Assembly (NCBI GenBank): GCA_029834535.1
Contig: JAQMWT010000010.1
Coordinates: 1 to 64,000, forward strand
Source: Chrysophaeum taylorii
Taxonomy: Eukaryota > Sar > Pelagophyceae > Pelagomonadales > Pelagomonadaceae
DNA length: 64,000 bases
Direction of reading: 5' to 3'
Both the position numbers and the translations under genes were made by a program. The notes under the pieces were generated by a model. It did not search any database. It worked only from the letters and a program-made list of their open reading frames with translations, and was not told the origin of the DNA. Below are positions 36,814 to 57,658 of the stretch, in pieces. The stretch's first letter is position 1, and every line of letters begins with the position of its first letter.

Positions 36814-37646
36814 CTATTTCGTCGTATGCTGGGTGCTTGACGGAGTCGCTACCGGCATGCAGAAAACGGCGAAAGAGGGGGTGCACGGTCTCGCGGAGGT
36901 ACACGATGAAGTCGGCTTCATTTCCTTGGAGGTGATCGGATATAAGTTTCCTTTCGTCGTATCGGTCGTGTCTTTGTCTTGGTCTTTGAGTTCTTGGAGT
37001 TTTGGCTCATAGACATTATCAAGGAAGTGTTTGCCAAACTTGCGGTAGACGCCTTTGTAGTAGACGTAACAGCCTTGGAAGTCTTGGGTGTTACCGGTAG
37101 TTGAGTGGTTGTCGGGGTCCTTGTCATATTCCTTGATGCAGTGGCTTAGGAGAGCGTCAGCTAGATCATTAGATCCGCGTAAGACGGATTCCCACGTGTA
37201 GAGGCACTGTAAGAAGTATTGCGTGATGCCTGTTTCAGGCATGAGATGTTCGACGAACAACTGCATAACGCGAAACGAGAGCATTTGGGGGGTGACTTGA
37301 GCGGAGTCCATTGACTTGAGGACAGCGCTAGGGAGGTCAGTGAAGGTGTTTGACTTGGTCTTGGGGTCTTGTGGAGCTGGAGTTGGGGGGCTGCGGCGAC
37401 GGCAGGTGGTGTCTGCATGGCATTGAGTCGTGCTTCGAGTGCTTGTAGCGCTTGAGCTTGTGCTTGTATGACTTGAGCTTGTGCTTGCATCTCCCTTGTA
37501 TGCTTTGCCTCTATGCGAGCTTCTTGGTCTTTTATCTCCTTTTGGAGTTCTTGATTGGTTGGTATCTTGGTTTGGTTCAGGAACGTCAGAGAGCGAAACT
37601 CGGCTGGAAATCCTGGGACTCTGCTGATACCGGGACTGGTGCCCAA
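36814..37646 (-). pseudogene. Gag N-terminal region of the copia element, frameshifted
   Basis: Two overlapping minus frames. The upstream one (37646-37161) has a Gln/Ala-rich coiled coil (MQAQAQVIQAQAQALQALE). The next (37311-36814) continues a helical gag-like sequence (ALLSHCIKEYDKDPDNHS). The first codons lie just inside the 5' LTR, as expected of gag. Confidence 0.6.
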
Positions 37647-37650
37647 TACC

Positions 37651-37798
37651 TAGAGAACAGTAATTTCAACTGTGTTGCCCTTCAGCAGAGTGAGAGCAGT
37701 GGTAGTCTGCCCTCGTCCTGTGCTCTTACAACGAGGACAGCACGGTGTGAATAACACAACGCTTTTCTGAATTAAAAGTAGGAGAGCTAACCCTAGTA
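37651..37798 (-). repeat. 5' LTR of the copia element, outer end interrupted
   Basis: Near-identical to 26883-27045. Just inside, on the minus strand, GGTATCAGCAGAG (about 37634-37622) resembles the initiator-Met primer site of many copia elements, but its distance from the LTR is a little long, so the primer site is tentative. Confidence 0.75.
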
Positions 37799-39015
37799 TA
37801 ACAAACTAACTAACTTCGGACCTCTCCCGGGCATGGGAGCCAGGCTGGGCCGGTAGTAGCCGGTCCAGGATCACAGAGCAAAAAATCACACAGTTGGGGT
37901 AGAAGCTTGGGAAGAAATTGCATGGATGGCGGACCGCCACTGCGCGCGGTCTTGTGCGAGGTCGTGCCACGAGTTCAAGGGGATGTCGCATTTCCCGAGT
38001 GCCTTGGCGAGCGACCTCCCGTACGTCATCTGCGGAGCCCCCGGTGGGCGCTTGGAGCGGACCCAAGACGAGAGCATCTTGCGAGGGAGTCGGGAGAAGG
38101 GCATGCGGGCGACGTGACCGGCCCAGCGGAGCTGGCGGCGCGTGACGTAGACGTCGATGGACTCGAGGCCGAGGCGCCGCCGCAGGATCTCCGTTGAGAT
38201 GTGGTGGGACCAGGTGTGTTTCCGGGTCACACGACACATGACGCGGGTGCACTGCGCGTGGAAACACCGCAGCCGGCGGAACAGGACCTCGGTGAGGCAC
38301 CACGATTCCGCACTGTGAAGGAGGATGGCCAGGACGAGCGAGACATAGACGAGGCGCTTGGCGCGAGCAGAGACGGACTTCGAGGCGAAGATGCAGTCCC
38401 GCAAGGCACCGAAGGCCTGAGACGCCTTCTTGATCCGCGCGTCGACGTCTGAGTCGTCGCGGCAGTCGCGCGAGAGGACCGAGCCGAGGTACTTAAACTG
38501 GTCGACGACCGGTATGAAGCGGCCGCGCCCGAGCTCGATGTCCGAGAGGTTCGTGTCGTCGAACGACTTTGGGTCGCCGTACAGGTGTGCCGGGCGAGCG
38601 ACGAACAGCATCTCCGTTTTGGACGCCGCTTTCGTGTGTCGGTTGCCGCAATGCACCTCCATGCCCCAGGCGTCGCAGTGTTCGATGAGGCGCGGTGTCT
38701 CGCTGGCGGCGATGTGGCGGTCCCAGAAGAGAAAGGCAACGTCGTCGGCGTACGCCGATTCATCGAAGGGAAACTCGTCGCCGCGAGCGGACCAACTCCG
38801 GTTCGTCATCTGAAAGTCTTTCCGCGTACGGTAGACACATGGGGTGCGGCCATGGCGTCGTCGAAACGACGTCGTCAGTGCCGCCATGAACAGCACGAAC
38901 AGGACGGGGCCCAGGACGTAGCCCTGCTTGACGCCGATGATCGAGTCAACCGAGGCGACGACACCGCTGACCGAGAAGTGGACCTGGATTCGGTGGAGGC
39001 CCTTGATGACTTAAT
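37799..39015 (-). mobile_element. 5'-truncated non-LTR retrotransposon (LINE) with GTTA-type tail
   Basis: The open minus-strand frame from about 39011 to 37886 encodes reverse transcriptase. Landmarks: GVKQGYVLGPVLF, then SAYADDVAFLFW (catalytic YADD), FKYLGSVLSRD, and the C-terminal LRWAGHVARM ... HDLAQDRAQWRS typical of LINE RTs. The 5' portion (endonuclease, ORF1) is missing. The 3' end is ACCTC...(GTTA)n at 37803-37815. It inserted into the outer part of the copia 5' LTR. Confidence 0.85.
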
Positions 39016-39020
39016 AGGGG

Positions 39021-39700
39021 GTACCTAACTAACTTCAGACCTCTCCCGAGAATGCATGGAGCCAGGCCGGACCGGCAGGAGCCGGTACGGAATCATAGAG
39101 GAAAATCATGCAGTTGGGGCCCTAGGATAGGGGGGTAACTAACTAACTTCAGACCTCTCCCGAGAATGCATGGAGCCAGGCCGGACCGGCAGGAGCCGGT
39201 ACGGAATCATAGAGGAAAATCGCGCAGTTGGGGCCCTAGGATAGGGGTAACTAACTAACTTCAGACCTCTCCCGAGAATGCATGGAGCCAGGCCGGACCG
39301 GCAGGAGCCGGTACGGAATCATAGAGGAAAATCATGCAGTTGGGGCCCTAGGATAGGGGGGTAACTAACTAACTTCAGACCTCTCCCGAGAATGCATGGA
39401 GCCAGGCCGGACCGGCAGGAGCCGGTACGGAATCATAGAGGAAAATCACGCAGTTGGGGCCCTAGGATAGGGGGGTAACTAACTAACTTCAGACCTCTCC
39501 CGAGAATGCATGGAGCCAGGCCGGACCGGCAGGAGCCGGTACGGAATCATAGAGGAAAATCACGCAGTTGGGGCCCTAGGATAGGGGTAACTAACTAACT
39601 TCAGACCTCTCCCGAGAATGCATGGAGCCAGGCCGGACCGGCAGGAGCCGGTACGGAATCATAGAGGAAAATCACGCAGTTGGGGCAGAGGCGAGGGACG
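39021..39700 (-). repeat. Tandem array of six 112-114 bp LINE-tail units
   Basis: The phrase AACTTCAGACCTCTCCCGAG recurs with phase positions 39033, 39147, 39259, 39373, 39487 and 39599. Each of the first units is the last about 95 bp of the LINE followed by CCCTAGGATAGGGG. Units are almost identical, with a few substitutions and a 2-bp length change in the G run. The last unit runs on into a longer LINE 3' end. Confidence 0.92.
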
Positions 39701-39848
39701 AGGACGGACTTGTTGATCGTGGACCGCCACTGCGGACCGGGGTCATGTGCGAGGTCGTGCAAAAGCGTCTCAGGCCGCGGACGTGTTGGTCCACGAACAA
39801 TCGACCTGTCCGTCGCGTTCTGCCCAACCGAGCGAACCCCATCCCAGG
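39598..39848 (-). pseudogene. LINE 3' terminal fragment
   Basis: The last unit of the tandem array extends upstream on the minus strand into LINE coding sequence. The frame LLHDLAHDPGPQWRSTINK matches the C-terminal SWHDLAQDRAQWRSAIH of the LINE at 37.9 kb. It is cut at CCATCCCAG near 39848. The same sequence, cut elsewhere, occurs at 42120-42320. Confidence 0.75.
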
Positions 39849-40102
39849 TATCTCTAGAGGTGCCTTGTCCGCGATCATCGAGCCGATGATACCATTTTGT
39901 GCAGCAGCCAGCGATAACATGCTTGATTCCGACGACGCGCCGCACACATCTATGTCGACGACCGCTTCGAGCTGTTGATTTTTCTGAGAAGACTATTCCC
40001 TCCTGACTACCCTTGGTCGCTCGCTCACAATATCCCGCCCCTAACACCTTCCCAATCCAATCACCCCCTTATTGTAGTTACCCTCGGTCAAAATCGGTGC
40101 CT

Positions 40103-40924
40103 ATGGCCGTCGTCGCTGTGATCGTGGGCGCCGGGAGCAAGTGGGACGAAGACGGGAATGCGAAGCACTTGGAACCTAGCGTTCGGTTCGGCCTCGGCGG
40201 CGCTCTGTCGCTTCGATTCGCTCGAGATTACCATGTGGTGCGCGTAGTTTTAGTTTGGTCGAAAGGCATGACTCCGCAGGTGCTGATGGGACGGCGCACC
40301 GCGGTCCTCGAAGAGGTTGCCGCCGAGGTCCGCAAGATTGGCGGAGAGGCAACGGTCGTGTCCGTGGACGTGACCTCTGACGAGAGCGTCGACGCGGCCT
40401 TCGACGTTGCCAAGAGCGTCGGTTTTGTCGAGGTCCTCGTCTTCAACTGTGGGCCACCCATGCCGAAGGGTGTCACCTTCGCCACGCTTCCCCTGCCGGG
40501 CGACCTCGACCCGGCCTACCTCAAGATGGCCTACGATGTTGGCCTCGTCGGCGCCGCGCGGTGCGTTAAGCGAGTCGTCGGTCCCATGCTCGAGGCCGGG
40601 AACGGCAACATCATCTTCAGCGGCGCAACGATGAGTCTTCGCGGCGGGGCGAAATTTTCGGCCATGTCGCCCACCAAGTTCGCGCTTCGATCCTACGCCC
40701 AGAGCTGCTTCCAGGCCTACGCGCCCAAAGGAATCCACGTATCGCACGTCGTCGTCGACGGCGTCATCGACTCCCCCGCTACGCGAAGCTTCAACAACGT
40801 CCAGCACCAGAACCCCGCCGATCTCGCCGAGGCCTACTTCCACCTCACCAAGCAGCCGAAGACAACCTGGACCCACGAACTCCAATTGTCCCCGAACCAA
40901 TCGGGGATCGGCATGCGCCTTTAA
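40103..40924 (+). CDS. Short-chain dehydrogenase/reductase (atypical, lacks the usual Tyr)
   Basis: A Rossmann NAD(P)-binding fold: VIVGAG and GLGGALSLRFA form the Gly-rich loop, followed by MGRRTAVLEEVAAEV, VSVDVTSDESV, the NAG-like VFNCGPP and the segment SGATMSLRGGAKFS. The YxxxK site reads MSPTK, so the canonical Tyr is Met; some bacterial-type SDRs with AKFALR and GIHVxHVVIDG blocks also lack it. Two stretches not expected in SDRs (about 40147-40185 and 40238-40279) are bounded by GT and AG and are multiples of three, so they may be tiny introns. The start at 40103 leaves the Gly-rich loop at the N-terminus; an upstream in-frame ATG at 40013 would add 30 odd residues. Stop is 10 bp from the convergent HSF gene. 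Confidence 0.82.
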   Translation: MAVVAVIVGAGSKWDEDGNAKHLEPSVRFGLGGALSLRFARDYHVVRVVLVWSKGMTPQVLMGRRTAVLEEVAAEVRKIGGEATVVSVDVTSDESVDAAFDVAKSVGFVEVLVFNCGPPMPKGVTFATLPLPGDLDPAYLKMAYDVGLVGAARCVKRVVGPMLEAGNGNIIFSGATMSLRGGAKFSAMSPTKFALRSYAQSCFQAYAPKGIHVSHVVVDGVIDSPATRSFNNVQHQNPADLAEAYFHLTKQPKTTWTHELQLSPNQSGIGMRL

Positions 40925-40934
40925 GTCGTATGAT

Positions 40935-41537
40935 TTAAACGCGCGCTGTCCCCGGAGAAAGAAGCGAGGTAACGAGGCCCTCGAGGTGTGCGACGCGGGC
41001 CTGGAGCCGTTTTATCTGCTCGGTCTTCAGGTCATCCACCTCGTCGATTCGTTGTTTTTTGCTCGGCGGCGGCTCCTCGCTCACCGCGCGTGCCGCCACG
41101 CTCAAGGCCGTCAGGCCATTCAAATCCTGCTTGGGCGCGAGCGGAATTCTCTCCTCGCACAGGTGCTCCATGCGCTTTATTCCACACAAAAGCTCGGGCT
41201 CGTCGCGCACGAAAAATGGGTGACTAAACTCTGACCACCCGTTCGTCTCGCGGCGCCGCGTCTTCCGGAACCCGTAGCACGACAGCTGCCGCGCGAACGA
41301 CCGGAAACTCGAGTGCGCGAAGTTGTCCGGGATGACGCTCGTCCGCGCCGACTCGTCGTTGATCCAAAACGATTTCCCGTCGGCCGCCCACCGCCCGACC
41401 TCCGACGGACACGACTCCAACATCTTCGATAACTTCCCCACGAACGCGGCCACCTTCGTCCCCGTCGGCAACGGGGGTTCCTTGCGCTTTCGAGGCGGAG
41501 CCCGACCCATCTTTATCTTTTCCTCCAGAGAGCGCAC
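40935..41537 (-). CDS. Heat-shock-factor-type transcription factor
   Basis: A 200-residue ORF. Residues about 28-122 form an HSF DNA-binding domain: KVAAFVGKLSKMLE, WAADGKSFWIND, IPDNFAHSSFRSFARQLSCY (recognition helix) and GFRKTRR, then WSEFSHPFFVRDEPELL. A basic patch SKKQRID at about 155 could be a nuclear signal. A short coiled coil (LKTEQIKRLQARVAHLEGLV) near the C-terminus suits oligomerisation. Compact HSF families are greatly expanded in diatoms and other stramenopiles, which supports the lineage guess. Acts in the nucleus on heat-shock-element-like sites; targets unknown. Met10 is an alternative start. Confidence 0.9.
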   Translation of the reverse strand: MRSLEEKIKMGRAPPRKRKEPPLPTGTKVAAFVGKLSKMLESCPSEVGRWAADGKSFWINDESARTSVIPDNFAHSSFRSFARQLSCYGFRKTRRRETNGWSEFSHPFFVRDEPELLCGIKRMEHLCEERIPLAPKQDLNGLTALSVAARAVSEEPPPSKKQRIDEVDDLKTEQIKRLQARVAHLEGLVTSLLSPGTARV

Positions 41538-41784
41538 TCTGCAACCGCCGAGACCGTTGAACAGGGGTTTAAATTCAACCCGACAAATCTAACTAACTGT
41601 TCGTTGCCCCCTTATCGATCGATCGATCCAAAAAGTTAACGAAAAACAACCAACCCCCGTCGTCCAGAATCACGTGATCCGTTCGCTATCGTGCCCTCCC
41701 TATGAACCAATTGCAGATCACGTCTCCAAGCTCACTACTCGCATTCTTTTTCGTAAACTCATCTAACGCACCTATGGTCTTTAC
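41538..41784. other. Intergenic, upstream of HSF
   Basis: Contains GATCGATCGATCGATC at about 41613-41627 and no gene. It probably holds the HSF promoter; gypsy copy 2 starts at 41785. Confidence 0.5.
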
Positions 41785-42514
41785 TGTGGCGGCAACTCCT
41801 GACCGCCAAGGCTTACCCTTCCTTTCTCGAGGCTTGATACCCGTTCAACGGGACGCCTTTCCCTACCTTCCTAGTGACATCATACCTCCCTCTTGTGAGA
41901 GGCATTCTTGCAGTATTCATGTAGCATTCTTGCTAACAAACCCTGCGATCGCTAACCGTTGTTTGCGATGGAGGACGGCGCCTAACACGCTTGCTCCTTG
42001 CGGCGGCCCCGGCCGTCCCGGAGTGAGACGGTGCCTGCTCGCCTCCCGGGCTGGCCGGTTAGCACCCGGAAAGTCCGCGCTGGGATGGGGTTCGCTCGGT
42101 TGGGCAGAACGCGACGGACAGGTCGATTGTTCGTGGACCAACACGTCCGCGGCCTGCGACGCTCTTGCACGACCTCGCACAAGACCGCGCGCAGTGGCGG
42201 TCCACCATCAACAAGTCCGTCCTCGTCCCTCGCCCTGCCCCAACTGCGTGATTTTCCTCTGTGATTCCGTACCGGCTCCTGCCGGTCCGGCCTGGCTCCC
42301 ATGCTCGGGAGGTCTGTCGTTAGTTGTTTACTTGCTGCTCCATACCATCTCTCCATCTTGTTGAGAGGCTTGGTGAGCGTGAGCAAGGTGTGTGGCGAGC
42401 ATACCCGACCCCGAGTTCGTGTTTTCCTCGTTCAGTGAGGTCTAGGACGAGTCGGTGAGCACACCCTTTGTCTGTCACCCGGGGGTCGGGAGTGTTTTTT
42501 TCTGTGCCGCCATA
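41785..42514 (+). repeat. 5' LTR of gypsy copy 2, containing a SINE-like insertion
   Basis: Aligns with 50633-50956 on both sides of an insertion at about 41939-42341. Begins TGTGGCGGC like the other gypsy LTRs and ends GCCGCCATA. Two bases inside, TGGTGGAGTACACGAG (from 42517) is a good primer-binding-site candidate, because copy 3 has TGGTGGAGGAATAC in the same place; the tRNA is not identified. Confidence 0.82.
41939..42341 (+). mobile_element. SINE-like element in the gypsy copy 2 LTR
   Basis: About 403 bp absent from the 3' LTR. Its head (GATGGAGGACGGCGCC) is shared with the element at 32863. Its middle and end are LINE 3' sequence, with frame remnants of the RT C-terminus, ending GGTCTGTCGTTAGTTG. 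It shares the LINE-like tail of the 32863 copy. Confidence 0.75.
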
Positions 42515-42945: not shown

Positions 42946-45376
42946 ATGGATATAAACGCAGACGTGCATGAGGAAGAATCTCCTCCAGTTCTTCCCGCCG
43001 CCCCTGAGATAGGCCGCGAGGAAGGTGAATTAAGAGAGGCCGAGGCAGTCGACGTTGCTGACGTGCCCCCTGGCGTGCCTCCTGACGTGCCTCCGGATAC
43101 TGCCATTTTTTCGCCGTTGAGTCCAACGACCCCGCACAGTGGCGAGCGTGTTACTATTGAGCGCGGATCTGCAGCCCGAAGTCGACTTCGTGAAGACCAC
43201 GAGCGGAGACGTCGCGAAAATGAACGATTAGCTGAGCGTTTTGCTCGTGAAAGGGCTGAAGCGAAAGAGGAAGCGGCTCGACGAGAAGTTGATATGCTCA
43301 GTGATGCCTTACAGCAAGAGATTGAGACCTCGAAGACCCTACGTGAAGAGGTTGAACGATTTCGTCGTGAACGAGATGAATTGTTAGCCGAACGTACGCG
43401 TCGGGAGAGTAGCCGCGAACGACCCGTGAGTCGACCCGAACCGGAAACGCCCGTGAGGCCGCCTGAACCGGAAAGGAACACTGAAACGGAGAATGAACCT
43501 CCGCCCCGAGTCGATACGGAGACTGAGGGTAGGGCGGAAGTTGAGAATGAAGGTACGAAAATTTTACGGGGATTATCGCGGGGAATATCGCAGACGGTTG
43601 CGGACGCCTTCGAAAAGGGCAACTTGAGCCGATCCCGTCGACCCACTTCCAGTTTGAAGCCTGACAACTTCAAACTCGTCATCGACGGCCGAGATCAACG
43701 GCAATTCAATTTGGATTCGGCAGCGATGATGCATACTTTAGCAGATGACCATTACTCGGTCGAGAAATTACGTTACCTACTACCCGTGCATCTACGGGAC
43801 ACCGTTGCACCAATTTTTGAGGAACACTTGCAGAAATACGAGGAGCTCTGCGATGAGCTACCGCACGGTCCGTCGTTTTACTTGAAATTGGATACTGACG
43901 ATGAAGAGCATGGAGCCTCGGTTCGTCGCATCCGTCGTCTTAATAAGACGTATTGTGATAATTCTGGATTATTTTAGATCGACTTGCCGACCTCCGAGCA
44001 CGCAGCAGGAGCTGCTCGACAAGCTGCGGAAGGTCACCCAGGCTTCAGTTCCGAAGAAGTCTGGGGAGCGGCACGTCCAGACGTATTGTACCAAATTCCA
44101 ATCGGAAGCCTTGGAGTTTTGTTCCGTGTCCAGCCGCACGATGGATGATGTCGATATCCTCGACCAGCTTATCAGTGGATTGACATCCAAGGAGTTGAGG
44201 ACCCGTGTGCGGACTATGAGGAGCGGACATCCTGATAGTTACTTGACTTTTAAGTCGATGGTGGCGCTTATTACGCGGCTCGAGAACGACTTGCGAAAGT
44301 TGATGGAGGAGGAGAAGGACCAAGGCCCTCCTAATCCGAAATCGAATAAACCGCCGCGAGGGCGGGGAGGTCGAGCTATGGCCTCCGATCAACAAGCCAA
44401 GCAAGATGCGGATAAACCGTCTGGGAATACGGATCCGCTGATCTTACGAGATCCTTTTTTGTGGGGCAAGAGAACGTGCAAGCACTGCGGGTTCTTCTGG
44501 ACCACCCATGATGAAGATGAACACGGAAATCGCGTGGTTTGCAACCGCGATCCGGATCGTTACTACTGTGCGATGTGGAAGCGTATTCGTAAGCAGAAGA
44601 AGCAACCCATATCGCGTTCCGATTGGGCGAAGCGTGATGATGCACCTCATGCGAACGCCACGCGCGGATCGGAGCCTTCTAATGAAATTCAAACGGCCCT
44701 CATCGATATTGGAACCACAATGGCGACCATGGTGAGCGAGGTCAGAGGCATCAAGGATACTACGTCGTTTTCTACACGACAGCGAGACGGACGATCACCT
44801 TCTAGACGATCGTCGCGCCGACATCGAAGCCAGAGCCCTGATCGAAAGGCCAATACTCCTCAAACCAGCCCGAGTCCCCGCCGTCACCGGAGCTCTAGTC
44901 GCAATTCGCGCCGGCGCCGACGTCATCGACATTACGATGACGAATATGACGGAGGTCGATATCAGGATAGTTCGGGACATTCGAGCGCAACTTTCGCGTT
45001 CCAGTCTCTATGCGACGCGCCGCCATCGTCGGGAGTTGTCTTTTACCCGACGGCGCGACCCGCCCGAGTCTCCGATGATGTTGCCGATGCCGCTGTGACG
45101 AGCAGCCATCGCTTGCAACAGGAGCATAATACCACCAACGCTCGGATCGTTCGGTGGCCATCTACATCGTATGTGGAAGCAATATCAGATGCCACTTTGG
45201 ATTCTCAGCACTACTGGGGAGACTCAGACTCGGAGACCGACGAGCCGCAGGTTCCAGTGTCCCCCCATTCGTCAATGTGCATGTCTTGCAGGGCAGTTCA
45301 CGATGATGACGTTAGACCTTTTGAGTTGACGTCGGGAACGACGTCTTCTTTTCCTACCCCCCCGAGACCGTTTTAG
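42946..45376 (+). pseudogene. Gag of gypsy copy 2 (frameshifted once)
   Basis: Frame 1 (42946-43977): a Pro/Glu-rich start, a coiled coil (residues about 65-160), then the gag core VIDGRDQRQFNLDSAAMMHT and LRYLLPVHLRDTVAPIFEEH. A frameshift near 43960, not present in copy 3, moves to frame 2 (43901-45376). That continues the core (SGERHVQTYCTKFQSEALEF) and adds a Cys/His cluster (CKHCGFF, then H and C) that could bind zinc. It ends in an Arg/Ser-rich tail (RRSSRRHRSQSP), presumably nucleic-acid binding. Role: forms the virus-like particle. The 431 bp between LTR and gag is an untranslated leader. Confidence 0.82.
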
Positions 45377-45538: not shown

Positions 45539-46552
45539 TTGTTGTCAGCGAAACTGGGGAATGAGGAAGCAGCCGAAGCGGCGAGCGCCAATATAGATTC
45601 AGCGGCGAGATGTGGAACGCCAGATGTGGCAGCGGTGACGATGCAGATGCCAGGCGATGCGAAACCGGAGATACGATGTCATCACACTGCACTTTCGCCG
45701 AGCGATGGGGAAAAGATCGAGCAAGGCCTCATCACCATCGGCTGCCTAGACCCTGGTACGCTTACATTTATAGTTGGTCATATTTATGGACGACGAGACG
45801 GGCCGAAGTTCGCAACGACTTTAGGCGTGGATGGAATGGCTGATGTCTCCTATATTTGTCGTGGGATGGTCGAAAAACTGGCAAAGGATAGCATCATCCT
45901 TGACCGGGGCGATCTTCCAGTCGAGCGCACCCTGTACGGGTCAGGATTGAACAAGACGACTATCCACAAATGGGTCGCATTGCGGATTGCGCTTGCGGAC
46001 GACGTGGCCGTTCCAGTTGTTGCTATTGTGGCCGATACTAATCATCTATTTTTGCTGGGAGCGCGCGATATTCGGGTGTTGGGAGCCATAGTGGACTACC
46101 CGCGAAATCGCATTGCGTTTCTCCGCACACAAGTCGCTTATGGGCGCAAGAAGTTAAAGGTGCAGGATCGACGAGTCGATTCTCCGATTTTGACGTTCAG
46201 AACAACTTATGACGAGCGCAATCCCGTGGTAGTTCAGGTTTATGGGCAACAGCACCATGCGATGCAAAAGAGCCTGAGCACAGTTGAGAACCGAGTCTAC
46301 GCTCGCTTGTGCAAGATTGAAGACCTCCAGCGTCCACCGCCGAAACGAGCGGGAGCTTCGACGACTTGGGGAGTCCCTCCAGTTACGCCTTCTCAAAGTT
46401 CGAACAGCGATGCCTATGAAGTGATAGCCTATGCTGCGCGCACGATGAAGGTCGAGCCTGGGCGCACCTACTGCGTGCCAGTCGCTCTTTCAGAGCCCAT
46501 GGAAACCAAGTTTTCGTTGCTACGTCCTCTGGGTACGAGCAACTCGGGGTAG
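45539..46552 (+). pseudogene. Protease region of gypsy copy 2
   Basis: A 337-codon frame. The protease active site reads GCLDPGTLTFIVG; the expected DTG (present in copy 1) is DPG, so it should be inactive. The second half (HLFLLGARDIRVLGAIVDY) has the LLG strand. The frame runs to EPGRTYCVPVALSEPME and shifts near 46512 by one base relative to copy 1, ending at 46552. The next frame opens at 46561. Confidence 0.8.
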
Positions 46553-46560: not shown

Positions 46561-48477
46561 ATGTGTTCTTCTCCTGAGGATCATGATAAGTTCGCAGCTC
46601 GAGTGGCGATATCCTCTACCCAGGATGTGCCGACCGTGATTACTCAAGGTGAAGTCCTTGCTTTGGGCGATATTGTTCGTTTTGATGACGAGCTGAATGC
46701 TGAGACGGTCGACGATTTAACGAAGGATGGTGAAGCCGAATCTAACAAGGCTAACCTATCATTCACTGTTTCGGTCGCAAGCCATCTTACTCAAGGCGAT
46801 GCGGCTCCCGAACCGATGCTTTTGAGCTCGGTGCAGAAGGCGTCTCCTTCTGCCGATAAGAAGAAGAATTCTCGTCAAGAATCGCTCGGTAACGACGATT
46901 TCGACCGACGAACTGACGAGGAGGAAAAGAAATGCCGAGAAGTTACAGAAGGCGAGATTCGCCGAAGGTTTGAAAAGGTCCACTGGGTGCCGATCACGTA
47001 TCGCAAGGTTGTGATGCTCTTTAGCGGCGCCGGAGGAAGTACTTTAGGACTGCAACGAGCGAACGAGTTGTGCGGGACGTCGTTTCGAGTCGTCCTTGCT
47101 CTTGACTCTTCAACAGCTGCCAACAAGGTTCATCAGAAGAATTTTCCGAAGATACCTGTGGTTCAGCACACGCTCTGCGGACGATATGACTCGACCCTCC
47201 GATTGATCAAGGCTTATTTGCCTGAAGCGGAATGGTCATCGTCGATGTGTATAGCGTCTCCACCCTGCGTTCATTCCGCACTCTGCAACTTGACTTCCAG
47301 AGATGTTGGCAGAGGTGTTACGGCCACTAACTGGACGATGAAGCTGTGCAAAATGGCGGGCTTCATGATGTGGCTGATTGAACAGGAGGCGTCCATTATT
47401 TCTTATATAGCGCGCTTACACCCTTACGTGTACGTCGTCAATTTTCATGATATCACGCCCACTCTGATGAGCTCTCGCGTGCGATTGTTGGTTTCCAGTC
47501 ACCCACTGCACTTGCAAGAGGCTCCGAAGACATGTGTGAACATGCAACAAAAATTTGCTGCAGCTTTAGGTTATGCTCATGAACGCCACCTGCTCCAGCT
47601 GAATAATCTTGGCTCGTCCCGAGAAGCAACAGATACGGCTTACACCGTTGCGCGAGTTCCTCTTCGTTTGGGACCGCATCGCTCGGACACTCAGCCTTTG
47701 ACTCTCGAGATGACGGCCGAGTTGCTCACGATGCCGGTGGACCATGATTGGGCTAGCTTGTCTAAGACAGATTCGTTCAAACATTTAGCGTCTGTCGTCC
47801 CTCCAGACACTCTTGCGATTTTAGCAGTCGATCTGCACAACTCCGTGACCAGAGGTTTCCGCCAAAGTGGCGAAGTCCTGCCGACCGCGTTGAGCCCGAC
47901 AGATCGATCCTTTGAGCAGTATTTGCGAATCTCCGACACCACCTTTCGTCACGTACAGATTCCGCTGTTAAATACGCGTACTCGTGTCGTTAAGTGGGTG
48001 TCAAAAGATGATCTCCAGGATCCCACTAAATGGGAACCGCCAGAAGTCCCTATGCTTCCGCTTCCAACAGATGCGCCGGGGACGGCTCATGCTTTTTCTG
48101 CTGCCCCCCCCCGACAATCAAAAGTGGACGTTCCGCCGGATCCTGAACCTGAACAGGAGCCGAAAGTAAGGAGCGAGCCGAATGTGCGCGTCAAAGGTGA
48201 AAAGATCAATAAGAGCCACCCTGAGGTGAGGTTCAAATACGAAGAAAAGTTCGATGTGCCATGGAAGGATGCGCCGCGCGATGCGGACGGTGTACCGTTA
48301 CCGCAGACTCCCGAGCACGTCAAGGACAACGATGCGATGAAAGTCGTAATTCCGACGAAGGAAGAAGTAGAAATTGTTCGAGATCTGGGAATTCCCGACA
48401 ACCCGCGTCTGGATGATGATGAGAAGATGATGTTGAGCCACTGCAATACGCGTGGGCTTTCTTTGATCCGATTATGA
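46561..48477 (+). CDS. C5-cytosine DNA methyltransferase within gypsy pol (intact ORF), plus linker and RT N-terminus
   Basis: A 638-codon uninterrupted frame. Residues 1-90 are the gypsy post-protease segment (VITQGEVLALG). Residues about 148-427 form a DCM-type methyltransferase: motif I LFSGAGGSTLGLQRA (153-167), motif IV ASPPCVHSAL with catalytic Cys236, motif VI position IEQEAS (273-278, the usual ENV is EQE), motif VIII SSRVRLLVSS (304-313), motif IX QPLTLEMTAELL (378-389) and motif X KHLASVVPP (407-415). The target-recognition interval between VIII and IX is short. A linker and the RT N-terminus (VPWKDAPRDADGVPLPQTP) follow until a frameshift near 48450. Expected to methylate cytosine using SAM. 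Copy 1 has the same domain in the same position, so it is part of the element and not a host gene. Confidence 0.88.
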   Translation: MCSSPEDHDKFAARVAISSTQDVPTVITQGEVLALGDIVRFDDELNAETVDDLTKDGEAESNKANLSFTVSVASHLTQGDAAPEPMLLSSVQKASPSADKKKNSRQESLGNDDFDRRTDEEEKKCREVTEGEIRRRFEKVHWVPITYRKVVMLFSGAGGSTLGLQRANELCGTSFRVVLALDSSTAANKVHQKNFPKIPVVQHTLCGRYDSTLRLIKAYLPEAEWSSSMCIASPPCVHSALCNLTSRDVGRGVTATNWTMKLCKMAGFMMWLIEQEASIISYIARLHPYVYVVNFHDITPTLMSSRVRLLVSSHPLHLQEAPKTCVNMQQKFAAALGYAHERHLLQLNNLGSSREATDTAYTVARVPLRLGPHRSDTQPLTLEMTAELLTMPVDHDWASLSKTDSFKHLASVVPPDTLAILAVDLHNSVTRGFRQSGEVLPTALSPTDRSFEQYLRISDTTFRHVQIPLLNTRTRVVKWVSKDDLQDPTKWEPPEVPMLPLPTDAPGTAHAFSAAPPRQSKVDVPPDPEPEQEPKVRSEPNVRVKGEKINKSHPEVRFKYEEKFDVPWKDAPRDADGVPLPQTPEHVKDNDAMKVVIPTKEEVEIVRDLGIPDNPRLDDDEKMMLSHCNTRGLSLIRL

Positions 48478-49706
48478 GACCCGTGGACTCGCCACCGGTT
48501 TCTCTACGATTTAAAGACGCAAACCCACGACCGATCAAGATGACGCCTTATAGGTTGACGCCAGCAAAGCTCGAGTGTCTCAGAAAGCAGATCACTGAGT
48601 GGTGTCGCGATGGAGTCATCCGACCGGCGAACTCTCCGTGGGGATTCCCTGTACTGATGCTGCCTAAGAAGGGAGCAGAGGCCGGGACGTCGAATGCTTT
48701 TCGTGCTGCAGTTGACTTGCGTCAGCTCAATGATCAGCTGGTCAATGACAGTTGGCCGAATATTCGTCAAGATGATGCTTTGGTTTTCTTGCCATGCGCC
48801 GTTGGCGGACGTGCATTGATATTCGATGGGGTTATCATAACCTACGTTTGGACGCCGCTGCTCAGGGCGCCGTTACGATGGTTAGTCCACTTGGAGCCCA
48901 TAGTTTCTTGCGCTTCCCTCTAGGGGTAAAAACAGCAGGAGCGCTCTGTTGTAAGCAGATGGCTAGCGATTTGTCCACATGGATGTATAAGGACTTGGTC
49001 GCGTTTGTCGACGATATTATGATGGGATCGGATGAACTCCATCGACATTTACAAGTTTCGATTGAAGTGTTGTGCCATTTAGCACAGCGGGGATATAGTG
49101 GACGAACTTCGAAGTTCCACCTCCTCAAGGATGAAATCGAGTTTTTGGGACATATTTCGACTCCGGAAGGCTTGAAGCCGAATCCCAAGACGTTAGAAGC
49201 GCTGCAGCAGATGCCGATTCCTGGTACGTTGCCTAATACGTCCCCGAAGACCCAGATTCGATCTTTCATTGGCATGAGCAACTATTGCCGCCGATATGTG
49301 AAGAATTATTCGAAGATTGTGGAGCCGCTTAGGCGATTGTGTCTTGAAGGCGTTAAGTTTGAGTGGACGCCTGAGTGCCAAAAGGCATGGGACACGATCA
49401 TCGAAGCTTCGGTGGACTCTCGCGGAGTTTATCATCCTGATTACGATCTTCCTTTTCAGATCCGCTCGGATGCTTCCAAGGATGGTCTGGGCGCGTATCT
49501 TTTTCAGCTCGTGGAAGTCAAGGACGAAACCGGCAAGGTGACACGAGAGGAACGAGTAATTGAGTATTGGAGCCGAGCTGTGCCGAAAGAGATGCGGAAC
49601 TATGAGCTTCGCCGGCTAGAGCTACTGGCAGTTATTCTTTCTCTTGAGCATTTCCGCTCTTATATCGAAGGTCACAAGACGATCCTTGAAACAGATTATC
49701 GCAACT
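48474..49706 (+). pseudogene. Reverse transcriptase and partial RNase H, gypsy copy 2
   Basis: Frame 48474-48923 carries DGVIRPANSPWGFPVLMLPKK and the AFRAAVDLRQ block. A frame change near 48785 leads into 48794-49861, which contains LGAHSFLRFPLGVKTAGA, the catalytic AFVDDIMM, and the RNase H start IRSDASKDGLGAYLFQ with its first Asp intact. RNase H continues to ILETDYRNF and stops abruptly at the deletion junction near 49707. Confidence 0.87.
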
Positions 49707-50602
49707 TCAGATCTCAACTTTCATGCTTCGTCTTAACCGGCAGCCTTTATTGCCAACCAATTACACGATCATGGATCTTGATGTCCGCCGCCTGCCGAAA
49801 ACTCGCTCCGATGTTGTGGCACAGACTCGCGAGAGGCAGATGTTATATACCGCTACGGTGAACGAAGCTCGCGAGGAGGCTCATCGTACACAACGTCTCG
49901 CCTACAATGCGGACCATATCGATGTGGAGCATGAAGAAGGTTCTCATGTTCTACTCTACCTCCCTTTTCTTCAGAACAAGCTTCGACCGGAATGGCGCGG
50001 TCCATTCGTTATTTTGGAACGCTTGTCCCCGATCACTTACAGGATTGAGTCTATTGATTCTCCTCTTGAACGCCGTTGTGTTTATGTTAGCCACATCACA
50101 CCTGTGATGGTTTCTCCAGTGGTCGATCGAGCTGTGCCCAAGCCCAAGGAGACCTTTCGGGATGATTACAAGCATGGTAAGTTCGTTATCTTTCGGATTC
50201 CGGATAACAAACGGTCCGATTGGCGAAAAAAAGATTTACGTCGCTGAAGTTTATGAACCCTATGATTTTGTGAATGATCGAGTCGCTCTGCATTTCTATG
50301 CCGATCTTGGTCCCCATGACAAGGTTTCTTATTACAAGCCTACCTCACATCTCTCTACTCGCAAGCTTAAGCCGGAATACAAGGACGTGGTCGGTCGCAG
50401 TTTCACCGACAAGACCAAGGTCAACGACGGTACCACTCTTTGTGTCACCGACTTCGCCCCGCATGAGATCGATGTGTTGATTCCTAAGTTCACTTTGCGT
50501 GGTGGACGCGTTCCTGAACCTGTCGTTGAACGTGTCTACAAGAAGATTCGTTCTCGAGACGCTCATTCAGCCAAGGCTCGTGCTTCTCGCCGGACTCGCT
50601 GA
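49707..50602 (+). pseudogene. Integrase C-terminus fused by deletion, gypsy copy 2
   Basis: Immediately after ILETDYRNF the DNA resumes at a point equivalent to 7685 in copy 1 (MLRLNRQPLLPTNYTIMDLD). The integrase zinc finger and DDE core are gone. The C-terminal module PFLQNKLRPEWRGPFVI and the shared end LRGGRVPEPVVERVYKK follow, with a frameshift near 50228. This copy cannot integrate on its own. Confidence 0.85.
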
Positions 50603-50619: not shown

Positions 50620-50956
50620 ACCAGGGGAGTCCTGTGGCGGCAACTCCTGACCGCTAAGGCTTACCCTTCCTTTCTCGAGGCTTGATACCCGTTCAACGGG
50701 ACGCCTTTCCCTACCTTCCTAGTGACATCATACCTCTCTGTTGTGAGAAGCATTCTTGCAGTAGTCTTGTAGCATTCTTGCTAACATATACCATCTCTCC
50801 ATCTTGTTGAGAGGCTTGGTGAGCGTGAGCAAGGTGTGTGGCGAGCATACCCGACCCCGAGTCCGTGTTTTCCTCGTTCAGTGAAGTCTAGAACGAGTCG
50901 ATGAGTATCCCCTTTGTCACCCGGGGGTCGGGAGTGGTTTTTTCTGTGCCGCCATA
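50620..50956 (+). repeat. 3' LTR and polypurine tract of gypsy copy 2
   Basis: CCAGGGGAGTCC precedes TGTGGCGGC at 50633. The LTR is about 324 bp and ends GCCGCCATA. It contains TGACATCAT near 50725, a half-site of the palindrome in the other gypsy LTRs. Confidence 0.83.
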
Positions 50957-51266: not shown

Positions 51267-51603
51267 TGTGGCGGCGACTTCCGCCTCCTAAGGCTTACCC
51301 CTCATTTAGCCCCCCCCCCCTTATCAGGGGTCCTTACTCCGTTCTGATGATGTCAGTTTTCTCTATGACATCATCTTCCTTTTCCGTGACATGTGTCACC
51401 CTGATTTCTGTGATTCGATAATATCTTAATCATAAAGCAACAGCCGATCCTCAAGTTGTGAGGACCAGGCACGGAAGTTGTTTGTGGTTGTGTGGCGAGA
51501 GAACGGCCTTCCTCGTCCAGTGACTCCAGCAAGGGCACGGACGCGAGCGGCGAGCCTAGATTCGAAGGCGCGCCAGGTAGGCATAATTTCTCCTAACGCT
51601 ACA
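51267..51603 (+). repeat. 5' LTR of gypsy copy 3
   Basis: 337 bp, TGTGGCGGC...CGCTACA. Contains the inverted pair ATGATGTCA (51347-51355) and TGACATCAT (51366-51374). TGGTGGAGGAATAC from 51606, two bases after the LTR, is the likely primer-binding site. Confidence 0.92.
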
Positions 51604-52066
51604 GGTGGTGGAGGAATACAAGATTCGAGCGACCATATCGGTCGCAGCGGACGAGTGCATCTTGCATTCTCTACACGGTCCGGACGAGCCGCGCGCGCCC
51701 TGATCAAGCGCGCCGACGAAGAATTCAAGAGGGACCATCGCCGCGGGAAAGTTCCCCGGCCGGATACGTTAGTCGTCGGAGGTGATGACGCGCGGATCGG
51801 TTCGAGCCGACGCGCAACCCGGGTACCGCTGCCGCAGGCGAGCGGAGTGAGATCGCAACTCACAAAGGCATTGATTGCCGAGCAGAGACGAAACCTGCCG
51901 CCCAACGGAACTGATAAATCGGTCGGTGGAAGACGCACGCGGCGACGATATTACGCGTGTCGTGGACGAGTGAAAGTCCCAGAGTCGAAGGAACACGAGA
52001 ACGACGACGACTCGACCATTTTGGTCCCGTTCTGACTTTGGCCGATTAGAGCGAGCCGGGGCCGAT

Positions 52067-53581
52067 ATGGAGGAAGACGATGCTGCTGATGAGCAGATAC
52101 GAGAACCCGAACCGTCAAGTCGTCCCGAGGGGACGAACGAGCGGAACGATGATGATGACGATGAAGTTGATGATAACGATGATAAGGATTATGCTACCGA
52201 GGGTGATGACGAAGAGGAAGAGCTGGACTACAACCGCGACGGGCCGGTGGAAGCGCCGCCGGAGAGTCAACCGACAGCTCCGTCAACACGTGCACGAACC
52301 CCAGATGCAACGAACATGAACGAGTTCTACGAAGCTCATCTACGCGCGTTACGCCGAGAAAACGAACGCTCACAAGAGAGACTTCTACAGCACATCGCGG
52401 AATAAAGCGATCGAAATGAGCCACTACGCCGGAAGGAGACAGAATAGTTACGAGAGCAAGTGCGGACAGCGAACTCTCGAGCAGAAGAACTCCAAGCTCG
52501 ATCCGAGGAACTTCGAGATCGAGTAGATTTATTGACCCGTGAAAGGGACGAGTTACGTACGCCGAGTCGATCGAGGCGAGCGAACAGCCCGGGATCCCGA
52601 CCCGAGGAAGAGCCGCCGCCTACACGAACACGCGCGAAAGTTAGGAAGCCGCGCTATGATGACGATGATTACGAAGATAAGGAGGAGACGCATGACGACG
52701 GGAAGATCGACAACCAGAAGTTCCTCATTGACATCACTGACCGGTTCGCCAGCGCGCTAGCTAAACACGATCGCAGCAAGGATCGGCGATCAACCTCCGG
52801 ATTAAAGACTGAAACGTTTAAATTGGTTCTTGATGGTCGCGACCAGGACCAATTCGATTTAGATGCAGACGCAGTGATGAGTACGTTAGCCGAAGACCAT
52901 TTTATTATGGAAAAGCTGCGGTACCTACTGCCAGTAAGCTTACGCGACACAGTCGCCCCGATTTTCCGAGAACACTTGAAGAAATACAAGGACGCGTGCA
53001 AGGATCTTGACCATCCGGCGTCTTTTTATTCACGTCGGGATATCGACGATGATGAGTACGGTTCAGTGGTACGACGACTACGACGACTGAACAGGGAGTA
53101 CTGCCTCAAGATTTTGAGATACATCCGATCGAGTTGCCCTTTGCCGATGACGACAGAGGAATTATTACGAAAACTTCAGGGTACGACCCAGGCGACCGTT
53201 CCGAAACGACCTGGGGAACGCCATGTGCACACTTATTGCACCAAATTCCAGAGCGAGGCGATGGCCTACTGCTCTGTGGCCAATCGAGACCTCAATGACG
53301 TTGAGATCATTTCTTATTTGATACGTGGACTGGAGTCCAGCGAATTAAAATCCCGCGTGCGAACCATGCGCAGCGGGCACCCGACTACGTATAATACGTT
53401 TACGTCGACGTTGTCATTGAGTACGCGGCTCGATAAAGACTTCGCGACCGCGTTGGCGGAGCGGAACAGCCGCAATTCGCCGAACCCGTCGAGCGGGAAG
53501 CCGCAGAAACCGCCTTCTGGACGCGGAGGCCGAGCGCTTGCTTCGGGACCGAAAGACAAGAAGACGGAATTTGAATCGTAA
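52067..53581 (+). pseudogene. Gag of gypsy copy 3
   Basis: Frame 52067-52405 is acidic (DDDDDEVDDNDDKD). After a stop at 52403-52405 the frame 52460-53581 runs through a coiled coil, the gag core LVLDGRDQDQFDLDADAVMS and LRYLLPVSLRDTVAPIF, and RPGERHVHTYCTKFQSEAM. Unlike copy 2 there is no frameshift in the core. It ends just before the internal deletion, so the Cys/His cluster and SR tail of copy 2 are missing. Confidence 0.82.
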
Positions 53582-53959
53582 CGTTTAGAGGAGAGCTTTG
53601 CCGTCCGCGTTGAGTCCTGCAGACTGACCGTTTGATTATTATTTGCAAATCGACGAAACCACCCTTCGTCACGTACAAGTTCCGCTGTTAAACACGCGCA
53701 CACGTGTCGTAAGATGGGTGTCGACTGATGATGTCTCCAAGATCGCACCAAATGGAAACCTCCAGAGGTGCCGTTGATTCCGCCTGCAAGAGTTGAGCCG
53801 GGGACGTCTCATGCTTCTTCTGCTGCCCCCCCCCGACAACCAAATTTGGACGTTCCGCCAGATCCTGAGCGAGATCGGGAACCGAAGATTAAGAGCGAGC
53901 CGAGTGTTTGTGTCAAAGGCGAGAAGATCAACAAAGCCACCCGGAAGTGAGACTAAAAT
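53582..53959 (+). pseudogene. Deletion junction and post-methyltransferase linker, gypsy copy 3
   Basis: From about 53590 the sequence matches copy 1 from about 4565 onward (LLNTRTRVVRWVST, then PPDPERDREPKIKSEP). Everything between gag and this linker is missing: Cys/His cluster, protease and methyltransferase. Small indels break the frame near 53730 and 53935. Confidence 0.82.
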
Positions 53960-55325
53960 ATGAGAAAAAAGTTCGATGTGCCATGGAAACATGCGCCGCG
54001 CGATGCTGAGGGTGCACCGCTGCCGCAAACTCCCGAGCATGTCAAGAATAACGAAGCGATGAAAGTGAAGATTCCTACAAAGGAAGAAGTTGACAAGGTT
54101 GTTCAGGAGCTTAGAATTCCTGACAATCCGCACTTAGATGACGATGCGAAACTGATGCTCCGTCACTGTGTGCAATACTCTTGGGCCTTTTTCGACCCGA
54201 TTATGAGACCTGTGGACTCGCCTCCTGTGTCTCTACGATTCAAAGACGCGAATCCGCGACCGATGAAGATGACGCCCGACCGACTGACGCCCGCGAAGCT
54301 CGATTGTCGCCGCAAGCAGATCAGTGAGTGGTGCCGGGATGGAGTCATTCGTCCGGCCAACTCACCTTGGGGCTTTCCTGTGTTGATGCTTCCGAAGAAA
54401 GGAGCTGAGATTGGAACGTCAAACGCGTTCCGTGCTGCAGTCGACATACGTCAGCTCAACGATCAATTGGTCAATGACAGTTGGTCGAACATTCGACAAG
54501 ACGACGCTTTAGCCTTTCTCGCCATGCGACGCTGGCGGACATGCATCGATATTAGATGGGGATACCACAACCTTCGTTTGGATCCGGCAGCGCAAGACGC
54601 TGTCACGATGGTTAGCCCACTTGGCGCTCATAGTTTCATGCGATTACCTCTGGGTGTGAAGACGGCCGGAGCTCTTTTCTGCAAGCAAATGGCGAGCGAC
54701 CTATCGAAATGGATGTATCGAGACTTGGTTGCGTTTGTTGACGATATTATGATGCGATCTGACGATCTTCATCGACATTTACAAGTTTTGATCGAAGTGA
54801 TGTGTCATTTGGCACAGGGAGGGTACAGCGGTCGAACCCCAAAGTTCCACCTTCACAGGATGATATACAATTTCTGGAACACATTTCGACCCCAGAAGGC
54901 ATGAAGCCGAATCCGAAGACGCTGGAAGCACTGCAGAAGATGCCGATTCCAGGTACTTTGCCGAATACTTATCCAAAGACCTAGATACGCTCTTTCATCG
55001 GCATGAGCAAATACTGCCGGCGATATGTGAAGAGCTACTCGAAGATCGTGGAACCGCTGAGACGATTATTCCTCGAAGGCGTGAAGTTCGAGTGGACGCC
55101 CGAGTGTCAAAAGGCTTGGGATGCGATTGTTGAAGCTTTGGTTGACTCCAGAGGAGTCTGACACCCCAATTGTGACCTGCCCTTTCAGATCCGATCCGAC
55201 GCTTCCAATGATGGACTTGGAGCATATATTTTCCAGATTGTCGAAGTCAAGGACGATGCAGGGAGAGTAGCTCGAGAAGGACGAGTGATTAAATACTGGA
55301 GCCGAGCCGAGCCGAGCCGAAGGAG
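53960..55325 (+). pseudogene. Reverse transcriptase and start of RNase H, gypsy copy 3
   Basis: The 314-codon frame 53960-54904 holds the RT through AFVDDIMMRSDD and is otherwise close to copy 1, but reads WGYHNLRL where copy 1 has a stop. A frameshift near 54855 and several stops (including TAG near 54982 and TGA near 55159) break the connection and the first part of RNase H. A repeated GCCGA motif at about 55301-55320 also disrupts the frame. Confidence 0.83.
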
Positions 55326-57631
55326 ATGCGCAATTATGAGCCCCGTCGGCTAGAGCTGCTGGTAGTTATCCTTTCTCTGGAGCACTTTCGAGCCTATGTC
55401 GAAGGGCGCCGGACTGTTATAGAGACCGATCACCGCAATTTGGCGTTTTTACGTAAGGCGGCGCACTCGTCTGGGGAGCTTGCTCGTTGGGCGATGCGCC
55501 TCGCCAACTTTGATCCTGAACTTGGTTACAAGCCGGGAAAGTCACCGGGAATGAGTATCCCTGATTGTCTCTCCCGAAATCCGATAGATCATGTCATCGA
55601 GACTGACGAGTTTGGAGAGCCTTTGAACCACGCTTATTTGGTGTTCCAAGAGCTTCCCCGACTTGTTGATGACCAAGGAATTCCCGCTTCCGGATGTCAC
55701 TTTATATTGTCGTTTGTCACGACCGAACTGCCGGAAGACGAGGAAGAAGGTCCCGAAAAGGATCCGATAAAATTGGCTACGTCACACGCTACGAGACAAC
55801 GTCGGAAGAACCGTGTGCGGGATGAGCCCCAGGTCTTCAAGGGCGCAGCCGCCTACAAGGACTATATTGATAAAATTCCGGATAACACGACGCTCGATGA
55901 GATCGCACGTGAGCAAGAATCTGATGCTACTTGCGAGGATATTCGCTACCGAATGGCCCAAGGTCAGACGCCGCGACTTTCCCGAGCGAACGAACGATAT
56001 GAAGTTGTGAAAGACATTCTTTACCGCATTTCTGCTGATTTGCACCCGATGATTGTGGCACCTGCTACGTTGCGCAAGCGCATTTTTCGACTCTACCATG
56101 ACACTCCGGTTAACGGTGGTCATATGGGACGTCACAGTACTGTCCAGGCTATCCAAGAACGATTTTGGTGGCCCCCCATGTCGAAAGAAGTCAGAGTGTT
56201 CATTGCTGAATGTTTAGTTTGCCAGAAAGCTCGTACGCCTGAGCCAAAACGAGCTGGGATCTTGCAACAGCCGATCTACGATGGTGATGGCGCTGTTCTA
56301 TGCATGGATTTATTTGGACCCTTGCCCATCTATGCATGGATTTATTTGGACCCTTGCCCAGCGCTGGTCCCGAGACGTATCTTCTAGTGTTTTTTGATCC
56401 GTTCTCGCACTTCTTGATTTTGGATGTTTTGAACGACAAGGCTGCTGAATCCGTTCTTGAGTCATTTGTCATTAAAATCCTCCTCAAGGGCTACTTGCTC
56501 CAGATGATTCGTACCGACAACGGTAAAGAGCTCGTGAACAAGTTGATGCGCGAGTTTCGCCATCTCTTCAACACACGATACCAAACTACGATTCCTTATC
56601 ATGCCCAGTCGAACCCTGCAGAGCGTGTGAACCGATTTATCAAGGCCTTCCTCCGTGCCTGCCTTCAGGGCCGGAACATCACGGATTGGCCCGACTTTGC
56701 CCATTATTTTACGTTTTGCTACAACCGCAAGTTTATTCCAGGCACGCAGATTTCCCCCTTTATGCTACGCCTGAACCGTCAGCCGATGATGCCGACTGAC
56801 TACACGCTTATGGACTTTGATACCCGACTGTTGCCAAAGACTCGCTCTGATGCAGTCGCTGAAACTCGTGAACGATTGAAGTATTATACGAAGATCGTCC
56901 GCGAAGCTCGTGATAAAGCTTTGAAGAAACAACGATTGGCTTACAACGCCGATCATGTCGATGTTGAATACAAGGAAGGATCGCATGTTTTGCTCTACAT
57001 TCCTTTCCTTCAGAACAAGCTTCGACCGGAATGGCGAGGACCGTTTATTATCAAGGAACGCCTTTCCCCGGTCACCTATAGGATTGAGTCTCTCGACTCT
57101 CCGCCCGAAGAACGACGTGTTCATGTTAGTCAGATCACGCCTGTGATGGTACCTCCGATCGTTGATCAAGCCATCCGCAAACCCGAAGAAACCTTCCGTG
57201 ATGATTATCAGCACGGTAAGTTTGTTGTTTTCCGGATTCCTGACCGGAAGCGCTCTGATTGGCGCAAGAAGATTTATGTTGCCGAAGTTTACGAGCCTTA
57301 CGATTACCAGAATGATCGTGTTGCTCTACATTTCTATTCCGACTTGGGTCCGAATGATGATGTTGCTTATTTCAAGCCGACCTCTCACCTTTCGAACCGC
57401 AAGCTCAAGCCTGAGTACAAGGACGTTGACGGTCGCAGTTTCACCGACAAGTCCAAGATCTCATCCAGCACAACTCCTTGTGTCACGGATTTCGCTCCGC
57501 ACGAGATTGATGTGTTGGTCCCCAAGTTTACTCTACGCAGTGGTCGAGTTCCCGAACCGATCATCACCCGCGTTTACAAGAAGATTCGTTCACGAGATGC
57601 TCGTAAGGCGAAGCCGCGCTCCTCGCGCTAG
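55326..57631 (+). pseudogene. RNase H end and integrase, gypsy copy 3
   Basis: 55326-56387 is open from the RNase H Glu helix (RRLELLVVILSLEHFRAY) into the integrase zinc finger (NGGHMGRHSTVQAIQERF). A 32-bp direct duplication (units starting about 56299 and 56331) repeats the codons around the first catalytic Asp (CMDLFGPLP) and shifts the frame. The second frame 56300-57631 continues with MIRTDNGKELV, SNPAERVNRF and the C-terminal GPF module to the same stop as copy 1. Apart from this duplication the integrase looks complete. Confidence 0.87.
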
Positions 57632-57658
57632 CCGCTCGCTGGGGCAGCTCGAATTCTT

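Follow-up and report, generated by a model that had tools for sequence, protein, structure and literature searches.

A divergent C5-cytosine methyltransferase domain in the polyprotein of a Ty3/gypsy retrotransposon family of the pelagophyte Chrysophaeum taylorii

In dinoflagellates and charophytes, retrotransposons are reported to have captured DNA methyltransferases (DNMTs). LINE, DIRS and Gypsy elements carrying DNMTs, some of which perform CG methylation, are described in the accessible text of PMC5890265, a precedent that an earlier note, made from the letters of the present DNA, also names. The stretch analysed here (the 'window') comprises the first 64 kb of a contig of Chrysophaeum taylorii (JAQMWT010000010.1, hereafter contig C10); the whole assembly, 70.8 Mb in 697 contigs, was also searched. 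The window holds copies of a Ty3/gypsy long terminal repeat (LTR) retrotransposon family, and sequence comparison confirms in the family's polyprotein a divergent, putative C5-cytosine methyltransferase (MT) domain, located between a protease-like stretch and the reverse transcriptase (RT).

KnitGypsy-Dnmt3 of Klebsormidium nitens, as presented in the accessible text of PMC5890265, resembles this family in being an LTR Gypsy element with a cytosine MT in its Pol open reading frame (ORF), and in the purifying selection on that MT: its Ka/Ks is <0.2, and the family described here, compared with an intact element on contig C5, likewise falls under 0.2. It differs in being a member of the Dnmt3 clade with a DIRS-like arrangement of repeats, whereas the present family has plain direct LTRs, PPCV in motif IV, a host from another algal lineage and at least 107 genomic places. 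SymbioLINE-Dnmt and SymbioDIRS-Dnmt3 of Symbiodinium are, in the same text, also high-copy MT-bearing retrotransposons with more than one capture per genome, and one Symbiodinium retrotransposon MT family is given there as an orphan lineage. Those elements belong to the LINE and DIRS classes, and the Copia elements of Symbiodinium are stated there to have no DNMT, whereas in Chrysophaeum a copia family carries an MT as well.

The intact gypsy element on contig C5 (L061 and L062, minus strand) is ~10.3 kb long and is bounded by LTRs of ~341 bp each that are 98.2% identical. A single frame of 3063 codons encodes gag-like, protease-like, MT, RT, RNase H and integrase parts in that order, and another place on the same contig has a listed open frame of 3067 codons. 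The hallmarks of Ty3/gypsy elements are present, namely paired direct LTRs and an RT and RNase H followed by the integrase. No exact 5-bp target-site duplication was found at the contig-C5 element or at copy 2 of the window, the two copies examined. Across the genome, 107 places were scored out of 1128 first-look candidates for the gypsy MT, and all 107 match, with at least 77% identity and on many contigs; 85 of them have no stop within the match. Contigs C10 and C297 hold the same elements at nearly equal offsets and are probably two haplotypes of one region, and some of the genome-wide places are therefore counted twice.

The ORF at 46561–48477 (plus strand, 638 amino acids) is present in copy 2 and comprises the MT with linkers on both sides; the MT domain itself spans 46951–47907 (plus strand, 319 amino acids). 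Set against the intact contig-C5 element, the ORF is part of one long polyprotein frame and is bounded by two frame disruptions; on this comparison it is a fragment of a longer frame in a defective copy and not a gene with a start of its own. Upstream, on the same strand, lie a gag-like region (42946–45376), made of two overlapping ORFs and assigned from its position and its similarity to other copies, and a protease-like region (45539–46552), assigned from its position and from motifs that we take to be retropepsin-like; neither region matches a Pfam family. Downstream are the RT and RNase H (48474–49699; RVT_1, RT_RNaseH and RT_RNaseH_2) and the C-terminal part of the integrase with its tail (49708–50602). 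The 5′ LTR (41784–42514) matches the 3′ LTR (50632–50956) in two parts, at 96.1% and 93.1% identity, and is split at about 41939–42341 by ~400 bp of another repeat. Copy 2 lacks ~1.3 kb that copy 1 has between the RNase H and the integrase end, just upstream of 49708, and with this loss and its interrupted polyprotein frame it is defective. The initial proposal of a Ty3/gypsy element whose DNMT-family domain precedes the RT is borne out by PF00145, RT/RNase H and integrase matches, by paired LTRs and by the 3063-codon frame; the protease and gag labels are given by position and motif reading.

Several profile comparisons assign the domain to the C5-cytosine MTs. The DNA_methylase match anticipated for the product of 46561–48477 is found, but narrowly: PF00145 aligns at E = 3.8e-5 with 23.7 bits (cut-off 22), over residues 149–205 only, which hold motif I and the sequence just after it. 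All 12 members of an alignment of the gypsy MT (A1) match the same family (best E 3.7e-6, first member 5.3e-6; matches taken at E ≤ 1, each spanning ~55 residues around motif I). PHROG DNA-methyltransferase families match at E = 7.6e-8 and 1.7e-7, and NCBIfam dcm matches 11 of the 12 members, with a best E of 0.0011 that lies far under the dcm cut-off. With a custom C5-MT profile, built from eight phage C5-MTs and the host Dnmt2-like protein, the window gypsy MT scores 34.1 bits and that of contig C5 33.5 bits. None of 300 shuffled versions of the contig-C5 MT exceeds 2.1 bits, and scores below zero are obtained for the element's protease-like and RT regions. The custom-profile alignment covers motif I through the PPC cysteine.

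Residue conservation was assessed in 31 copies, 30 of which are the places closest to the window copy and mostly belong to one subfamily. The catalytic cysteine of motif IV, which aligns to the PCQ cysteine of reference MTs, is invariant (31 of 31 copies), as is the RVR of motif VIII, and the motif I glycines are kept in 30 or 31. The MT of copy 2 itself contains motif I, the PPC cysteine, EQE replacing ENV, RVR, and IX-like and X-like stretches. Membership of the gypsy METHYLTRANSFERASE domain in the family is well supported and, as far as the profile alignments indicate, rests on the N-terminal half. Of the motif series I, IV, VI-like, VIII, IX and X, read in that order in the earlier note, motif I, the motif IV cysteine and the RVR of motif VIII are conserved; motif VI reads EQE, and the alignment of motifs IX–X is non-significant.

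Codon comparisons show purifying selection to be keeping the predicted domain. Between the window subfamily and the contig-C5 element, the ratio of nonsynonymous to synonymous change (dN/dS) is lowest in RT–RNase H (0.025), followed by the MT (0.054), the protease-like stretch (0.114) and the linker that comes after the MT (0.210). The MT values for 25 stop-free copies against the contig-C5 element range from 0.050 to 0.068. Differences at codon positions 1, 2 and 3 number 49, 28 and 166. Within the subfamily the median is 0.23 (299 of 300 pairs, one being dropped for having no synonymous change), as expected where decaying copies are included. Copy 1 and the contig-C5 element, which belong to one subfamily, differ at 6, 4 and 7 sites over 214 codons with no skew to the third position, which fits a decaying copy. 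Together with the 107 of 107 matching places, the dN/dS of ~0.05 upholds the proposal that the MT is a feature of the element; the domain is clearly not absent from other copies of the family. We conclude from these comparisons that a Ty3/gypsy LTR retrotransposon family has captured a predicted C5-cytosine MT domain into its polyprotein; a captured domain of this kind, under selection, is almost certain.

Several observations weigh against the reading of the domain as a conserved, working MT that marks the DNA of its own element. Motif IV is PPCV and not PCQ, and it also departs from what we take to be the DNMT3-type motif IV. Motif VI, at the position given by our own reading of the alignment, is EQE and not ENV, although its first glutamate is kept in 30 of 31 copies; one glutamate of motif IX is conserved in only 18 of 31, and motifs IX–X, in the correct order, score a non-significant −1 to −2.5 bits. 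The dS of the gypsy MT, 2.2, is near saturation, so that the dN/dS value is rough. Derivatives that retain an RT and lack the MT exist. The mutational footprint of CpG methylation is also missing: in 29 copies, at columns with at most one deviating copy, transitions at CG (65/11383) are no commoner than at CHH (94/15762) or CHG (27/5657), and their rate is below that at A (135/20664) and T (164/20795). CpG observed/expected is 1.02–1.53 in 4-kb blocks of the window, with no depletion, and 1.14 over the genome letters read. The copies may be unmethylated at CG over generations, methylated cytosine may be non-mutagenic in this genome, or the MT may act on RNA or on transient cDNA. The altered motif VI and the absent CpG footprint speak against the simplest version of self-methylation.

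The MT-less derivatives were examined at 10 RT places, hand-picked from 130 for having no MT listed nearby, with 700 bases read at each. MT sequence lies upstream in 6 of the 10. At L072 a protease-like stretch occupies the expected MT position, at L075 and L077 gag-like sequence lies upstream of the RT, and at L076 only an LTR-like piece was found. In the window, copy 3 (51267–58012, plus strand; LTRs 51267–51608 and 57672–58012, 95.6% identical) has neither the protease-like stretch nor the MT. Copy 3, L075 and L077 share gag-like sequence joined toward the stretch after the MT; the junction is in frame in L075, L077 ends about two residues past what is apparently the same junction, and the junction of copy 3 differs. 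By sequence, L075 and L077 resemble an in-frame deletion form that has been amplified and would depend on supply of the lost functions in trans. Copy 3, L072, L075 and L077 rule out that all gypsy copies carry the MT, and copy 3 as an ancestral MT-less form is not preferred, since the protease-like stretch is gone as well.

Copy 1, which ends at 8943, carries MT, RT and integrase. Its MT domain (3634–4277, plus strand) is the in-frame part, the frame being broken after it; the integrase lies at 6853–8013 (plus strand; Integrase_H2C2 and rve) and the 3′ LTR at 8607–8943 (plus strand), with 91.4% identity to the LTR of the contig-C5 element. The same domain had been noted in this copy at 3691–4545; the domain is there, in frame over about 3634–4277, and the interval 3691–4545 holds 7 stops.

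A second MT resides in a Ty1/copia element of the same window, which the earlier note had passed over. A search of the genome with PF00145 gave at least 57 matches (123 of 474 candidates scored). Thirty of these loci were read: 2 belong to cellular genes, and the remaining 28 all match a single polyprotein that contains a second MT. Comparison of match lists places 20 of the other 27 on copia-MT search places. The seven outside that list (C3:54195, C23:3967, C322:77599, C216:62478, C104:69944, C683:49402 and C683:59821) may represent additional copia copies, a different MT-bearing element or genes of the host. The polyprotein is represented by L063, a frame of 1123 codons with PF00145 as its only Pfam match and, by our own motif reading, a retropepsin-like motif before the MT and an integrase-like stretch after it. 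In the window the element spans 27663–36759 on the minus strand, broken by nested insertions. It comprises, all on that strand, a gag-like region (35425–36759; no Pfam match, assigned from its position and its similarity to the frame that precedes the MT frame in L063), the MT (31749–33395; tblastn pieces, 88% identity over query 140–425, broken by ~350 bp at 32867–33218), an integrase (30064–31326; rve E 6.3e-5, under the curated cut-off) and a copia-type RT (27663–29408; RVT_2 E 2.2e-36). This order of MT, rve and then RVT_2 assigns the element to Ty1/copia. No copia LTRs were recognised in window positions 24000–41500 or in L063. A short dispersed repeat occurs at 41939–42341, 32882–34800, 37803–37967, 39027–39847 (in tandem) and 59265–59331, and both the 5′ LTR of gypsy copy 2 and the copia element carry insertions of it.

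Genome-wide, 107 stretches of the copia MT were obtained from 99 scored candidates (of 725), with 62–100% identity. This MT retains PCQ and ENV, matches PF00145 in 10 of 10 members (best E 5.1e-10), scores 59 bits with the custom profile, thus outscoring the gypsy MT on both, and has a median dN/dS of 0.17 over 45 pairs. Profile–profile comparison of the two MTs gives a probability of 0.5%, a weak test as both profiles are almost without diversity; scored against each other, both fall below zero. A single captured gene behind both MTs is unsupported by these comparisons, and a very distant common origin could still underlie them. The preferred reading is of two apparently independent captures, each directly after a protease-like stretch.

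The host itself encodes at least two cellular MTs, found in a non-exhaustive search that read introns as gaps. One is a DNMT5-like protein (L064, G000:C621:16000–23557; 468–6725, plus strand) with a frame of 2086 codons that matches PF00145 and SNF2. At E ≤ 1e-10 it matches a single PDB entry, 7r76, whose deposited name is DNA repair protein Rad8 and which we take to be a fungal Dnmt5. The second is the Dnmt2-like protein. DNMT5 is recorded in pelagophytes, haptophytes and other groups in the accessible text of PMC9998398.

Given a captured and selected domain, a tentative mechanism that we would put a little short of an even chance is that the MT acts as a Pol enzyme. It would be packaged with the RT and would methylate the new cDNA before or around integration. 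The incoming copy would then bear marks that the host DNMT5-like enzyme could copy on, and so marked it might avoid reading as foreign DNA or settle in a tolerated chromatin state; the copia MT would serve the same end. Retrotransposon DNMTs can methylate CG de novo, according to the accessible text of PMC5890265.

Two alternatives are each unlikely, to about the same degree. In one, the MT acts on RNA, methylating the genomic RNA of the element or its tRNA primer and so protecting or hiding the RNA. The missing footprint of CpG methylation in DNA agrees with this, in the PDB the gypsy MT comes closest to two Dnmt2 tRNA methyltransferases (E 0.085–0.091, non-significant), and RNA methylation is raised for a LINE-borne DNMT by the authors of PMC5890265 in the text accessible; yet with the gypsy profile 3 of 9 reference MTs (two phage enzymes and one more) outscore the host Dnmt2-like protein, and no RNA-binding domain was identified. 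In the other, the gypsy domain has lost catalysis and is retained in the polyprotein for a structural or nucleic-acid-binding role. The changes of ENV to EQE and of PCQ to PCV, the variable motif IX glutamate and the absent mutational footprint would suit such a role, whereas the invariant cysteine and the nearly invariant motif VI glutamate, in copies of nearly all one subfamily, argue for catalysis, and the copia MT has kept both canonical motifs.

Less probable still than an RNA target or a non-catalytic role is that the MT restrains its own element, methylating its insertions and damping retrotransposition in a way that spares the host, or alters the chromatin of the insertion site for the element. 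This reading is proposed by the authors of PMC5890265 in the text accessible, and the host has an enzyme able in principle to maintain such marks, but young-looking copies bear no CpG footprint. That the domain is no MT, or that it came to lie in the retrotransposon by chance insertion or through an error of assembly, is very improbable: the Pfam match of 46561–48477 is barely above cut-off, but PF00145 is found in every A1 member, shuffles reach 2.1 bits against 34, all scored places, on many contigs, match, and the intact element has one continuous frame.

As to origin, protein-database searches with the ORF, A1 and A2 each scored 8000 candidates, of which none was a homologue at E ≤ 0.001 or 0.01, and scans of viral contigs and prokaryote genomes with two short peptide patterns each found no relative. 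Against phages, the gypsy MT has four weak matches (best E 0.03), three to annotated methyltransferases and one to an unannotated protein, and for the copia MT the strongest match, at E 4e-6, is a phage DNA methyltransferase. Neither MT can be traced to a source.

Other mobile elements with an accessory methyltransferase include DIRS elements with Dam-type adenine methyltransferases and algal DNA transposons with N4C/N6A methyltransferases (PMC5890265, PMC6338049 and PMC12477816, in their accessible parts), which differ from the present elements in enzyme class or are of an element type that those parts leave unstated. Within the same limits, PMC6338049 records Gypsy and DIRS elements with a methylase in stramenopiles, among other lineages, with antiviral roles proposed, and PMC12477816 a brown-algal DNA transposon with an N4C/N6A methyltransferase. 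The accessible text of PMC12344493 mentions DNMT3 in 'LTR Copia' once, with no architecture, which may be a slip for Gypsy. The accessible parts of PMC11244446, PMC3145265 and PMC10538959 contain nothing on MT-bearing retrotransposons of this kind, and no report of this element was found in the open-access literature, subscription papers and bioRxiv lying outside the scope. Gypsy elements with a DNMT are already known as a kind; the host lineage, the enzyme lineages and the pairing of gypsy with copia appear new within the literature searched.

Elsewhere in the window, 20470–24201 (minus strand) encodes a single-frame protein of 1243 amino acids with nine FG-GAP stretches. The genome has at least 84 light-harvesting matches among those listed, some of them parts of one gene, and tandem near-identical light-harvesting genes at G000:C88:35406–41267 and C539:24843–30127 (five matches each, mostly at ~1.2-kb spacing). 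Two antenna proteins were tested: for one, all 15 chains among the matches listed are fucoxanthin chlorophyll a/c proteins, and for the other, LHCI chains of entry 9vfj are the sole matches. A silicon transporter was not found in the genome, in a search whose controls included no diatom, and no 18S rRNA turned up. Antennae and transporter result together suggest, short of proof, a chlorophyll-c alga other than a diatom.

The gypsy and copia elements of Chrysophaeum may themselves write marks on DNA or RNA. That retrotransposons hold the only de novo cytosine MTs of this alga, with a host kit of DNMT5, which copies marks, and Dnmt2, is unlikely; if true, parasites would write and the host would copy, and the methylome would be seeded by mobile elements. 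The presence in gypsy and copia elements, the two large LTR superfamilies, of dissimilar MTs at a comparable place suggests repeated selection for a function. What a transposon gains from a methyltransferase is now testable, with two enzymes at more than 100 places each, MT-less derivatives that may serve as natural controls, and a genome of ~71 Mb.
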